Shown here: piece after piece, positions 2,874 through 56,177 of the stretch | Position numbering within the stretch: position 1 is the first letter of the stretch | How the letters are laid out: every line of letters starts with the position of its first letter | Source of the DNA: Leptolyngbya sp. PCC 6406 | GTDB taxonomy: Bacteria; Cyanobacteriota; Cyanobacteriia; Phormidesmidales; Phormidesmidaceae | Length of the DNA stretch: 64,000 nucleotides | Assembly (NCBI RefSeq): GCF_000332095.2 | Contig: NZ_KI913949.1 | Location: forward strand, 890,633 to 954,632 | Direction: 5' to 3' | Made by a program: the position numbers and the translations under genes | Notes under the pieces: generated by a model | Database searches by the model: none | What the model was told of the DNA's origin: nothing | Seen by the model: only the letters and a program-made list of their open reading frames with translations

Positions 2874-3350
2874 CGAACTCGATTTTGATATCGAGGGCCT
2901 GCTGATAGTGCGATCGCGCCTGCTCAAACTCCCGCAGTTCCTGCGCCACGATGCCCAACTGGTGGTAGGTGCTGGCTTGGCTGTAGCGGTCGTTGAACTC
3001 GATTTTGATATCGAGGGCCTGCTGATAGTGCGATCGCGCCTGCTCATATTCCCGCAGCGCTTGCGCCACGATGCCCAACTGGTGGTAGGTGCTGGCTTGG
3101 CTGTAGCGATCGCCGAACTCGATTTTGATATCGAGGGCCTGCTGATAGTGCGATCGCGCCTGCTCATACTCCCGCAGTTCCTCCGCCACATTGCCCAACT
3201 GGTGGTAGGTGCTGGCTTGGCTGTAGCGGTCGTTGAACTCGATTTTGATATCGAGAGCCTGCTGATAGTGCGATCGCGCCTGCTCATACTGCCGCTGCTC
3301 TTGCGCCACATAGCCCAACTGGTGGTAAGTAGAAGCAAGAGAAATATTTT
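2874..3350 (-). repeat. 120-bp tandem repeats encoding TPR units
   Basis: The string GAACTCGATTTTGATATCGA recurs with a 120-base period at about 2875, 2995, 3115 and 3235, with near-identity between units. Each unit encodes one 40-residue TPR (YSQASTYHQLG ... HYQQALDIKIEF). The identity at synonymous sites points to recent expansion or gene conversion rather than selection on the protein alone. Confidence 0.9.
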
Positions 3351-43770: not shown

Positions 43771-43856
43771 CTCCCTAAGACCACTGCCACTGAGAATAGG
43801 AAAGCACTGGCATGGCTTGCTGCAAGACCATGCTGTCCCCCTTAGGCGGAGCCTGT

Positions 43857-45017
43857 ATGGCGATCAAAAACCTTATCTTTTTTGGGTTGCTGGTGTTTGT
43901 TCCCGTCTCCATTGCCGCCCATCTGTTGGGTTGGGGAGAACTGATCGTATTTATCACAGCGGGCTTGGCCATCATCCCCTTGGCGGGTTGGATGGGCACC
44001 GCCACCGAGGAAATTGCCGTTGTCCTCGGACCCTCTTGGGGTGGCTTGATGAATGCCACCTTTGGCAACGCCACCGAATTAATCATTGCCCTCATCGCTC
44101 TAAACGAAGGACTGGTCAGTGTCGTCAAGGCCAGCATCACCGGATCCATCATTGGCAACTTGCTGCTGGTGATGGGACTTTCGATGTTCTTGGGGGGGCT
44201 GAAATATAAGGAGCAGAGCTTTCAGCCCGTTTTGGCGCGGGTGAATGCGTCCACCATGAATCTCGCTGTGATTGCCATGCTACTGCCTACAGCTTTAGCA
44301 ACCACCTCCGGCGGTATGGCGGAGTTGACCTTAGAAGAACTGTCCTATGCTGTGGCATTTGTGTTGATTGGGGTCTATGGCCTCACCCTCCTCTTTTCCA
44401 TGAAAACCCATGCCTATCTCTACGATGTCGGTGTGGCTGAGGATCTAGACACCGTCAATGCCCCTGATGTCGCTCTCGGAGAAGCCTCCCATGACTCCGG
44501 TACCGCCAGGGAAGAAAGCGAAGCTGGGGAAAGCCATACCCCGAATCTGAAGTTCTGGATTCCCGTGCTACTGGGGGCTACCTTGGTTGTTGCCCTAGAG
44601 TCGGAACTACTGGTGGGGGCGCTAGAGGTGGCAACGGAACAACTGGGCCTGACCCCCCTCTTTACCGGGGTGATTGTGCTGCCCATCATTGGCAATGCCG
44701 CTGAACACGCCACGGCGGTCACGGTGGCCATGAAAAACAAGATGGATCTATCGGTGTCGGTCGCGGTGGGATCTAGCTTGCAAATTGCCCTATTTGTGGC
44801 CCCGATTCTGGTTCTGGCGGGCTGGGTCACGGGGCAGCCGATGGATTTGAACTTCAACCCGTTTGAATTGGTGGCGGTGGCAGTGGCGGTGTTAATCGCG
44901 AACTCCATCAGCTCTGATGGCAAATCCAATTGGCTGGAGGGGGTGCTACTGCTGGCAACTTACGCCATTGTGGCGCTGGTTTTCTATTTCGATCCCTTGA
45001 CCGGACCTTTGGGCTAG
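43857..45017 (+). CDS. Calcium/proton exchanger (CaxA family)
   Basis: A 386-residue antiporter exporting Ca2+ for H+. I chose the ATG at 43857 (MAIKNLIFFG), six bases after AGGCGGA; the frame is open to 43812. Two alpha-repeat motifs are present: GNATELIIALIAL and GNAAEHATAVTVAM, each with the ion-binding Glu. About eleven membrane segments are visible. The hydrophilic middle loop (THAYLYDVGVAEDL ... ESEAGESHTP) is acidic, as in other Cax proteins. Confidence 0.93.
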   Translation: MAIKNLIFFGLLVFVPVSIAAHLLGWGELIVFITAGLAIIPLAGWMGTATEEIAVVLGPSWGGLMNATFGNATELIIALIALNEGLVSVVKASITGSIIGNLLLVMGLSMFLGGLKYKEQSFQPVLARVNASTMNLAVIAMLLPTALATTSGGMAELTLEELSYAVAFVLIGVYGLTLLFSMKTHAYLYDVGVAEDLDTVNAPDVALGEASHDSGTAREESEAGESHTPNLKFWIPVLLGATLVVALESELLVGALEVATEQLGLTPLFTGVIVLPIIGNAAEHATAVTVAMKNKMDLSVSVAVGSSLQIALFVAPILVLAGWVTGQPMDLNFNPFELVAVAVAVLIANSISSDGKSNWLEGVLLLATYAIVALVFYFDPLTGPLG

Positions 45018-45063: not shown

Positions 45064-45136
45064 GGGGAATTAGCTCAGTTGGTAGAGCGCTGCGATCGCA
45101 CCGCAGAGGTGAGGGGTTCGACTCCCCTATTCTCCA
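45064..45136 (+). tRNA. tRNA-Ala (CGC)
   Basis: A 73-nt cloverleaf. The acceptor stem GGGGAAT pairs with ATTCTCC and contains the G3-U70 wobble that specifies alanine. D-arm TAGCTCAGTTGGTAGAGC; anticodon stem CTGCG/CGCAG with loop ATCGCAC, giving anticodon CGC (reads GCG); T-arm AGGGGTTCGACTCCCCT. No CCA is encoded directly (A then TTTC). The anticodon loop is inside a GCGATCGC HIP1 octamer. Confidence 0.95.
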
Positions 45137-45140
45137 TTTC

Positions 45141-45262
45141 AGGGAATTAGCTCAGTTGGTAGGGCGCTGCGTTGGCAGAGCCTGCCCGGAGGGCAATCGC
45201 ACCGCAGAGGTGAGGGGTTTCTCCTCACGGAGACGCTTCGCGAACGACTCCCCTATTCTCCA
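45141..45262 (+). pseudogene. tRNA-Ala copy 2 with two insertions
   Basis: A 122-nt tandem copy of the preceding tRNA. Relative to the 73-nt gene it has exactly 24 extra bases between CTGCG and ATCGCAC in the anticodon arm (beginning TTGGCAGAGCC) and 25 extra bases in the T loop between GGGGTT and CGACTCCCC (beginning TCTCCTCACGGAG). Position 1 is A instead of G, breaking the 1-72 pair, and D-arm GAGC is GGGC. Unlikely to be a working tRNA unless the inserts are removed. Confidence 0.85.
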
Positions 45263-45266
45263 TTTC

Positions 45267-45439
45267 AGGGAATTAGCTCAGTTGGTAGGGCGCTGCGTAT
45301 AGCCCTCCGGGCAATAGCCTCCGGCATGGCTACGCTAAGGCTAACGCTAGGGCAGAGCCTGCCCGGAGGGCAATCGCACCGCAGAGGTGAGGGGTTTCTC
45401 CTTACGGAGACACTGCGTGAACGACTCCCCTATTCTCCA
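45267..45439 (+). pseudogene. tRNA-Ala copy 3 with two insertions
   Basis: A 173-nt tandem copy with insertions at the same two places: 75 bases in the anticodon arm, ending with the same GGCAGAGCCTGCCCGGAGG block as copy 2, and 25 bases in the T loop (TCTCCTTACGGAGACACTGC...). All other tRNA positions equal copy 2. The inserted blocks are of the palindromic repeat type scattered in cyanobacterial genomes. Confidence 0.85.
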
Positions 45440-45445
45440 TTTCAC

Positions 45446-45487
45446 GCACAAGACCTCCGAGGTTTTTAAACCTCGGAGGTCTTGTGC
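45446..45487. terminator. 42-bp palindrome, possible bidirectional terminator
   Basis: GCACAAGACCTCCGAGGTTT pairs perfectly with AAACCTCGGAGGTCTTGTGC across a two-base loop. It lies between the tRNA array (plus) and the 3' end of psbO (minus), where convergent transcripts end. It also looks like a common cyanobacterial repeat, so the terminator role is inferred. Confidence 0.65.
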
Positions 45488-45524: not shown

Positions 45525-46361
45525 CTAGGCGGTTTCTAGGTCTTCGACACGACCGTAGAAGATGCCCTGGACCTTGATGTCCACAGGCTCGGCTGTGCCC
45601 ATGTCCGTATCAGAAGGCTGATTTGCCTCAAAGGTTCCGGCAATTTCTCCGGTGTAGCTGTCTACCTTGGAAATTTGGAGAACGATTTCCCCTTCGCCAA
45701 TATCAAACGCCTTGGTGTTTTCCCGGCGTAGTTCCTTGCTATCTCCCCGAGCAGGTAGAGCAACAGCGGTGTCATAGCCCGTGGCCAACCCTCGACCCTT
45801 GGGATCCAGGAAATTGGAGGTGCGGTAAGAGGGCACGCGGTAGCTGCCTTTGAGGTCGGTGTAGGTGGTGACAGCATTCAGCCCAGACTGGGACTTCGCG
45901 GTCAGACCCTTGATAGTAAAGAGAAACGGTTCCTGTTCACCACCGGGGAGCTGAACGGTGATGGCTTGGAAGTCCATGCCATCTTTTTCTGAAAAGGTCA
46001 AACTGCCATCGGATTCCAACACCAGATCGCCCCGCACTTGATTCAGGGAAGAAGTATAGCGAGTTAGGGATTTGCCACGGATGAATTCTGCTGCCCGACG
46101 GCTATTACTGGGTTCTTCTTTCACGAAGTAGGTGGTGGGTTCTAGGCAGAGCCCAGCAATTTGGTACTTCTTGCCCGAAACCAGCTCAATAGTGCCCCGA
46201 CTGGTTTCTGACAGTTGAGGACAGCTATTGGCTAGACCTGTATTACGGATTTGGTCATAGGTCAGCGGAACGTCCGCTGTGGCGACCGGCCCCTCGCTAC
46301 AGGCGGTCAAAAACCCCAGGCAAACTGCCAGGAAGGCAACAATCAGAGCGCGATACCTCAT
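45525..46361 (-). CDS. psbO: Photosystem II manganese-stabilising protein PsbO
   Basis: A 278-residue lumenal extrinsic subunit that shields and stabilises the Mn4CaO5 water-splitting cluster. The start is the ATG at 46361. A signal peptide ends near FLTACSEGPVATA. Family motifs: LTYDQIRNTGLANSCPQL, the second Cys of the structural disulfide in AGLCLEPT, DGMDFQAITVQLPGGE, and GEIVLQISKVD, GTFEANQPSDTD near the end. Monocistronic. Confidence 0.97.
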   Translation of the reverse strand: MRYRALIVAFLAVCLGFLTACSEGPVATADVPLTYDQIRNTGLANSCPQLSETSRGTIELVSGKKYQIAGLCLEPTTYFVKEEPSNSRRAAEFIRGKSLTRYTSSLNQVRGDLVLESDGSLTFSEKDGMDFQAITVQLPGGEQEPFLFTIKGLTAKSQSGLNAVTTYTDLKGSYRVPSYRTSNFLDPKGRGLATGYDTAVALPARGDSKELRRENTKAFDIGEGEIVLQISKVDSYTGEIAGTFEANQPSDTDMGTAEPVDIKVQGIFYGRVEDLETA

Positions 46362-46739
46362 GGTCAACCTCAAAAATTCGGATAAATCGCTATGGAGCTT
46401 CTGTCAGCGCAGATTCTTATTAAATGGCTTTAGGGTCTAGCGCAACGAATGGAGAGAAAAATCCATTCGGTCTAGCCATCCGCCCTAGGCTACATCGGGC
46501 TACCGCAGGCTCTTTTGCCTAGGCCACCTGAATTCCCCAGACAGGGCTGTCTGCATGGCGATTTGCATATCAAAAACGCTAGGAACTCGACAAAAGCCTC
46601 AAGAAGCATTCTACATGGCGCTGTTCCCCGAATAGGCCAGGGGAGAGGGTTGAAGGGGGTTGGACGTGTAACGAATTGTGGCGTTGCAGAGTAAATTGGG
46701 GAGGACCAATGACCCTTCTGGGAAGGAAATCTAGAGCCC
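46362..46739. other. Intergenic region
   Basis: Contains the psbO promoter (not resolved) and nothing else I can support. Confidence 0.5.
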
Positions 46740-47048: not shown

Positions 47049-47429
47049 TGGGGTGTGAGGGTATTGGAGTAAATCCCGTAGGGGCGGGTTTAGCTCGTAT
47101 TGACTGGGAGATCCAGGATGGTAGGCTCAAAACCCGCCCTACCCAGTGCCGGGAAATCCAGGATTGAGGTTAATACCGTAGGGGCAATCCCTTGCCTGTC
47201 CTGTTCGCGTAGCGGCTCCGCAGGAGCAACCTAGTCGTAGGATGGTTGTCCTTGTGCTGGGTGACCCGTGTTGGCGAAGCCTGCCCGTTGGCGAGGAGCC
47301 TGCCTTTGGCATAGGGCTTAGGGGTAGGGACGCGGTTTCCGCGCCCGATGCAGGATGTCACCCATGGACAGGCAATTTTGAATGGATTCCCTTGGGGTTG
47401 CCTATTCCATGGGGAGTCCCGAGGGGTGG
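47049..47429. repeat. Repeat-filled intergenic region
   Basis: Includes GTAGGGACGCGGTTTCCGCG followed by CCCGATGCAGGATGTCACC near 47325, another copy of the palindrome family of the zinc island, plus TTGGCGAAGCCTGCCC/TTGGCGAGGAGCCTGCC modules resembling the inserts in the tRNA copies. No gene supported. Confidence 0.6.
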
Positions 47430-55766: not shown

Positions 55767-56177
55767 TCGCCACCGTCCGTAGGAATCTTGTGCAGAACAA
55801 TAGTCTAGAATCAGCGATTGGCTCTAGGTCTAGGGTAAACCGTGACCTCTATCACCTGACCGCCGGGAAGATGCCTGTAGTCTTTTTTATAATCTGTCGG
55901 TAGATTACCCTACTGCTGAGGCATCTGTGTGATGTTCCCTGGAGAATGTTCCATAGGATGCGAGGGTCATTGGTGTAACCGCCCCGAAGGAGCTAGACCG
56001 GCCCCAAGGGGCAATCGCAGTTAGAGCTACCGTTTTTCAGGGTCGGAAACCATGGGACGGGTGCATTTTTTCAGGGTCGGAAACCATGGGACGGGTGCAT
56101 TGTATTGAGTCCGCCATAGCTTCCCCTACAGCTTTAAATTACACCTCCATCCCCTGACCGTAGAGGATGGGGAGATA
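55767..56177. other. Intergenic region
   Basis: No gene supported. It includes a 34-bp tandem duplication at 56033-56100 and GC-rich fragments. Confidence 0.6.
56033..56100. repeat. 34-bp tandem duplication
   Basis: TTTTTCAGGGTCGGAAACCA followed by TGGGACGGGTGCAT occurs twice in a row with a 34-base period and no differences. Confidence 0.9.

Follow-up and report, generated by a model that had tools for sequence, protein, structure and literature searches.

Background

The SDR5 repeats of Nostoc and its relatives, the closest described counterpart of the sequences analyzed here, reportedly fall in a size class of 21-27 nt, form a two-hairpin structure backed by compensatory changes, and are said to be found only within the HIP1 octamer. 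Short cyanobacterial repeats also lie inside genes for structured RNAs, namely STRR repeats in the cyanobacterial RNase P RNA gene and heptanucleotide repeats in the tRNA-Leu intron. To our knowledge, no HIP1 targeting has been described for the palindromic REP/REPIN repeats. The insertion site of SDR5 (Elhai et al. 2008, as cited in PMC4390886) lies between nucleotides 3 and 4 of the octamer. Searches of the open-licence literature turned up no description of elements like these inside tRNA genes.

We analyzed a stretch of 64,000 nucleotides (the window) from the genome of Leptolyngbya sp. PCC 6406 (5.78 Mb, 3 contigs), where an intact tRNA-Ala(CGC) gene (copy 1) is followed by two interrupted copies (copies 2 and 3). 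The interrupted copies are, with high probability, tandem pseudogenes of the adjacent tRNA gene that were invaded by SDR5-type elements, are old and inherited, and are kept as an untranslated leader or trailer.

The tRNA-Ala(CGC) array

The array is placed between a gene for a sodium/calcium exchanger-type antiporter upstream (43812..45014, + strand; Pfam PF01699) and psbO, which encodes the manganese-stabilising protein and converges on the array from the opposite strand (45528..46373, - strand; Pfam PF01716, E 6.7e-113). Copy 1 (45064..45136, + strand) is a 73-nt tRNA that scores 63.4 bits with Rfam RF00005, and it is the sole ARAGORN call in the array. A genome search with the anticodon core of tRNA-Ala(CGC) returned a single match, which is copy 1 itself. 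The HIP1 octamer GCGATCGC sits in its anticodon arm. A TGCTAAAAT sequence stands 5' of copy 1 despite the result of a simple sigma-70 scan, which gave no match in the window. Between the array and psbO, a terminator scan detected a perfect long hairpin with a T-rich tail (45446..45487, + strand), a probable terminator. A link of the array to its neighbouring genes was rejected, as the flanks differ between relatives. Elsewhere in the window, we observed a 120-base tandem repeat of 3.8 copies (2875-3327) and a perfect 34-base tandem duplication (56033-56101).

Copy 2 (45141..45262, + strand, 122 nt) consists of a 73-nt tRNA body with inserts of 24 and 25 nt, and copy 3 (45267..45439, + strand, 173 nt) consists of the same body with inserts of 75 and 25 nt; the spacer TTTC separates copies 1 and 2 as well as copies 2 and 3. 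These script-derived coordinates reproduce the array of exact insertions described in the initial annotation, including the identical positions of the inserts in the two copies (at HIP1 in the anticodon arm, and after TT in the T loop). Freed of the inserts, the two bodies are identical at 73/73 positions, and two changes set them apart from copy 1, namely G1->A and A23->G (GAGC->GGGC), the second of which turns the U12-A23 pair into a U-G wobble. Since these differences, which the initial annotation had already recorded as A1 and GGGC, are shared by copies 2 and 3, the two have a common origin after their split from copy 1. The derivation of copy 3 from copy 2, or the reverse, is likewise supported by the identity of the bodies.

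Both bodies keep 6/7 acceptor pairs and the G3-U70 alanine identity pair. The uninterrupted anticodon and T arms of a tRNA-Ala(CGC) that forms a cloverleaf are seen in copy 1 and are absent from copies 2 and 3. In structure prediction, copy 1 folds as a cloverleaf and the minimum-energy folds of copies 2 and 3 are not cloverleaves. The Rfam tRNA score of copy 2 is 30.9 bits, barely over the 29-bit cut-off. Near-matches to other Rfam families (YrlA, Tymo tRNA-like, miRNAs) were rejected; they lie below the cut-offs and stem from tRNA similarity or from the terminator hairpin.

The inserted elements

The anticodon-arm inserts split the octamer (GCG^ATCGC) where the 5' strand of the stem meets the loop, and the T-loop inserts are placed after the TT of TTCGACT. 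The 24-nt insert of copy 2, TTGGCAGAGCCTGCCCGGAGGGCA, contains two mini-hairpins (GGC-AGA-GCC and TGCCC-GGA-GGGCA). A covariance model (R2) was built from 38 HIP1-borne elements outside tRNA arrays. Run unfiltered on the window, R2 placed three of the inserts at the top: the anticodon insert of copy 2 (45172..45195, + strand; 31.1 bits, the best match) and the 25-nt T-loop inserts of copy 2 (45220..45244, - strand; 28.9 bits) and copy 3 (45397..45421, - strand; 25.0 bits). The 75-nt insert in the HIP1 octamer of copy 3 (45298..45372, + strand) is matched with 18.9 bits in its segment 45351-45372. Because R2 matches both strands in this way, all four inserts contain one element type and the T-loop inserts carry it in the opposite orientation, which refines the initial account of the array. 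The same model also matches the inserts of relatives. Two more weak SDR5-type elements, with starts 67 bases apart, lie at 47204-47294 (21.6 and 19.1 bits).

The T-loop elements of copies 2 and 3 differ at 4 of 25 positions (a stem pair changed with compensation, plus two bases in loops), while their 73-nt bodies differ at none; were four differences scattered randomly over these 98 bases, the chance that all would fall in the element is ~0.0035. The 75-nt insert of copy 3 is compound. By BLAST against its own genome, it matches a dispersed repeat of ~77 nt with up to 99% identity, and sequence searches count tens of full or partial matches of this repeat in the same genome. Its final 22 nt (45351-45372) are the same as those that close the copy-2 element. 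The insert may thus be a larger repeat that acquired an element of the copy-2 type through recombination, or else the parent from which a shortened element derives.

Elements of this type are dispersed well beyond the array. A pattern for the 24-nt element inside HIP1, in which the two halves of HIP1 and a few bases of the element are the sole fixed positions, has matches in 87/291 genomes of the cyanobacterial class and in 52/65 genomes of the family, and the reversed control pattern has none among the matches listed for the same genomes. The element-in-HIP1 pattern is thus not due to chance; nor are the inserts, given this difference and the relatives with the same insert positions. In its own genome, the strict 24-nt pattern occurs in copy 2 only, so that no local source of the element is apparent. 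Among distinct dispersed elements of the family, the pairs left free by the pattern are standard in 92-99%. Pair cells are paired in 98.7% of cases in dispersed elements and in 97.0% in array elements, and the covariation measure is 0.614 for dispersed and 0.443 for array elements (0.139 and 0.112 after shuffling). Conservation of hairpins within supposed pseudogenes could reflect either selection on RNA or correction of near-palindromes in DNA by template switching.

We call the inserts SDR5-type rather than SDR5 because the T-loop inserts lie outside HIP1, a misfit with an element said to be confined to that octamer; the label is given solely for their site, size and structure. On the element strand, the T-loop site TT^CGA has only the CG^A core in common with HIP1, which suggests a second target for the element, distinct from HIP1 and sharing this core alone. 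Invasion of a tRNA by a repeat, one of the possibilities raised by the initial annotation, is well supported, since the inserts are of an element type that is dispersed in genomes and targets HIP1.

Distribution of the arrays in relatives

The initial annotation had proposed a search of other cyanobacteria for the same inserts in tRNA genes. We surveyed the relatives by BLAST of 59 genomes, by reading the tRNA regions, and by pattern searches, and found relatives with the same structure, so the array is not a private accident of one genome. In about 25 of the 65 family genomes, interrupted copies of tRNA-Ala(CGC) lie beside the intact gene, with inserts at the same positions. This count comprises 19 real matches to an exact pattern and six further genomes (G013, G028, G032, G440, G444, G456); five other exact-pattern matches in the family were left out as chance-like. 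The carriers include, among the matches listed, Nodosilinea sp. P-1105, Shackletoniella antarctica ULC041bin1, Halomicronema sp. CCY15110, Leptolyngbya sp. RL_3_1 and the filamentous cyanobacterium CCP3. Among the matches listed by the exact-pattern scan of contigs, chance and unrelated tRNA matches prevail, and the scan serves to name organisms, not to measure frequency. An assembly artefact was rejected, as independent assemblies of relatives have the same layout. A phage origin was rejected as well: a scan of viral contigs gave 12 matches, none of which had an adjacent intact tRNA-Ala core in a script check.

Two layouts can be distinguished. Upstream units consist of the 5' tRNA half, a 24-nt element and usually a CGCACC...GGTGC hairpin, and they have no T arm; G010 has eight of them spaced 104 nt apart, Shackletoniella has three spaced 77 nt apart, and G287 has five. 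Downstream copies retain the 3' tRNA half, including the anticodon element and, as a rule, the T-loop element in reverse, and in most relatives their 5' acceptor strand is decayed. The window array has the downstream layout only. Several downstream-type copies (L082, L079, L109, L207) have a 5' end of about GGTGCGA..GCAGCGC, close to an inverted anticodon arm, and look as if made by template switching.

The arrays vary among close relatives. Among four genomes of one genus, G026 has one unit, G021 has none, and G014 and G034 retain only a remnant, and the promoter-like sequence TTTGGTAGAATACTG precedes the tRNA region in each. Because TTTGGTAGAATACTG precedes all four regions and the units vary, the upstream units appear to sit in a probable transcribed leader and can be lost. 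In G012 and G020, the tRNA-Ala(CGC) has GGATCGC in place of GCGATCGC, and there is no array, as expected if the insertions require HIP1. No HIP1-bearing tRNA-Ala(CGC) core with <=3 mismatches was found in eight genomes of genus g3 and seven of genus g13 (noted together with G008), which suggests loss or strong change of this tRNA in the two genera.

In a class-wide covariance search, strong insert-bearing copies outside the family were found only in G287 (family f16) and in Petrachloros mirabilis ULC683 (G526), the latter being added by the covariance model to the carriers from the phylum-wide exact pattern, which misses degenerate copies and sampled few genomes per family. The presence of the copies in these two genomes of other families needs horizontal transfer or a wider ancestry. 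At the loci concerned (L338 in G287 and L324 in P. mirabilis), the element of G287 is identical to that of Shackletoniella, which hints at horizontal transfer. Phage-type tyrosine integrase genes lie downstream of tRNA-Ala(CGC) at L076:8627-9739 and at L197, L292, L304, L305, L078 and L128, with identities among relatives of about 94-100% in most and 41% in Shackletoniella; the gene looks like an integration hot spot.

Probable origin and inheritance of the interrupted copies

We infer the following order of events. A duplicate of tRNA-Ala(CGC) would have been targeted, because its anticodon arm holds HIP1, by an SDR5-type element of ~24 nt inserting between bases 3 and 4 of the octamer, and a second element of the same type would have entered the T loop in the opposite orientation. 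Presumably, only duplicates tolerate such inserts, and the single intact copy keeps the tRNA function. The doubly interrupted form would then be old and inherited, with arrays growing and shrinking by unequal recombination between repeats, becoming partly homogenised with the intact neighbour, and gathering further repeats, such as the 75-nt insert of copy 3 and a nested element in G001. The latter is a + strand element within the T-loop element of a downstream copy (L080:1052-1075), at GCG^AACG, near a HIP1 half-site.

According to a different account, which we regard as unlikely, each lineage re-duplicated its tRNA-Ala(CGC) and local elements independently hit the same two hot spots. The wide dispersal of the elements among cyanobacteria would allow this, and both the change of arrays between close relatives and the continuing activity seen in the nested element of G001 are in its favor, as is the occurrence of stem 1 as GGC/GCC in some arrays and CCC/GGG in others. 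However, within the family, the array elements stand apart from the dispersed ones as a subset of their own. The stem-2 sequence CTCC, the commonest among dispersed elements, is found in 0/21 distinct array elements versus 44/104 dispersed ones (p 7e-5), and stem-1 CCC in 10/21 versus 1/104 (p 2e-8), both p values being optimistic owing to kinship of the rows. Array membership was marked by hand for this comparison, and two rows of unclear status were left out. Recurrent insertion also fits poorly with the same two positions and opposite orientations in the downstream copies of several genera, and with the many genomes outside the family that have a HIP1-bearing tRNA and dispersed elements, yet no array. 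Taken together, the distinctness of the array elements, the many array-free genomes, and the fixed positions and orientations favor old insertions followed by inheritance and local duplication, with continued local change, over repeated invasion.

Partial homogenisation fits the state of a C/T base in the D loop, at which upstream units agree with the intact tRNA of their own genome in 19/19 distinct cases parsed by script; the exception, L131, disagrees and was merged and left out of that parse. Shared ancestry contributes to this agreement.

The tandem copies might instead be attachment-site remnants of integrative elements that use the tRNA-Ala(CGC) gene, a reading to which we give little credence. 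A phage-type integrase (Pfam PF00589) just downstream of the tRNA in several relatives would suit it, and so would the downstream copies in several relatives that keep mainly the 3' part of the tRNA. At the window array, however, there is no integrase; the array is followed by the terminator-like hairpin and then psbO. Moreover, remnants of attachment sites leave both the fixed insert positions and the upstream arrays of 5' halves unexplained.

Transcription and function

As copies 2 and 3 follow the promoter region of the tRNA and precede the next terminator, they are probably co-transcribed with the tRNA as an inert leader or trailer. Their folding energies are ordinary for the most part, with z-scores of -1.0 for copy 2 and -0.7 to -1.4 for copy 2 together with two upstream-type units. 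The score of -2.8 for copy 3, computed on a stretch offset by two bases, is driven by the stem of the dispersed 75-nt repeat.

It is improbable that the interrupted copies are functional structured RNAs, such as a leader or trailer that would control the folding or processing of the adjacent tRNA, or stable tRNA-like regulators. The hairpins do covary inside the arrays, the upstream units of many genomes keep a third hairpin (GCACC-n-GGTGC), the number of tandem units reaches eight in G010, and the upstream units stand between a promoter-like sequence and the intact tRNA. But the covariation belongs to the dispersed element itself, the folding energies of copy 2 and of the upstream-type units are ordinary, the stem of copy 3 comes from a dispersed repeat, and the arrays are absent or decayed in close relatives. 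Just as doubtful, in our view, is a reading of the tandem leader and trailer units, each composed of one tRNA and hairpin modules, as a class of structured RNAs found throughout the family, which would be under selection to tune how tRNA-Ala(CGC) is transcribed or processed, or would provide the RNA through which the element moves.

Removal of the inserts in the manner of introns, yielding a functional tRNA-Ala from copies 2 and 3, is extremely improbable: although the inserts are exact and the 73-nt bodies nearly intact, with the acceptor and G3-U70 pairs noted above, most downstream copies in relatives have lost the 5' acceptor strand and still carry the inserts, so that splicing would not restore a tRNA, and we know of no bacterial tRNA splicing for such elements in a T loop. 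The initial suggestion that the inserts are removed or used as a structured RNA therefore finds no support, given the lost cloverleaf, the decayed 5' acceptor strand and the loss of arrays in relatives. As far as sequence data can indicate, none of the tests speaks for a functional product from copies 2 and 3, whether by splicing or as a selected RNA.

Under the preferred reading of the copies as invaded pseudogenes, a very small cyanobacterial repeat of the mobile type owes its invasion of a tRNA gene to its own target octamer, which the tRNA contains, and the interrupted duplicates have been carried through several genera. With the intact sequence alongside for comparison, each insertion site, the limits of each element and the changes in its hairpins can be followed at single-base resolution, so that ideas on how such repeats move and choose their targets become testable.

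Comparison with known systems

Tandem tRNA genes in a cyanobacterium are also present in the long tRNA operon of Anabaena PCC 7120, which comprises 26 tRNA genes, in contrast to the interrupted copies of one tRNA found here (PMC10272220). REP/REPIN palindromic repeats resemble the array elements in being short, palindromic and dispersed, but belong to other sequence families and have another target preference (PMC3116915). The repeats in the RNase P RNA gene and the tRNA-Leu intron share with the window the location of short cyanobacterial repeats inside structured-RNA genes. Their hosts, however, are functional and the repeats occupy tolerant places, whereas in the window the tRNA core is broken in dispensable duplicates.

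The anticodon inserts of copies 2 and 3 lie at GCG^ATCGC, the SDR5 site as cited in PMC4390886. The array elements are ~24 nt long with two stacked mini-hairpins and compensatory changes, and their type is dispersed in many places of cyanobacterial genomes. In contrast to SDR5, the T-loop elements of the window are reversed and lie at the non-HIP1 site TT^CGA, and the elements as a whole sit in tandem tRNA pseudogenes and appear to be inherited in place across genera.
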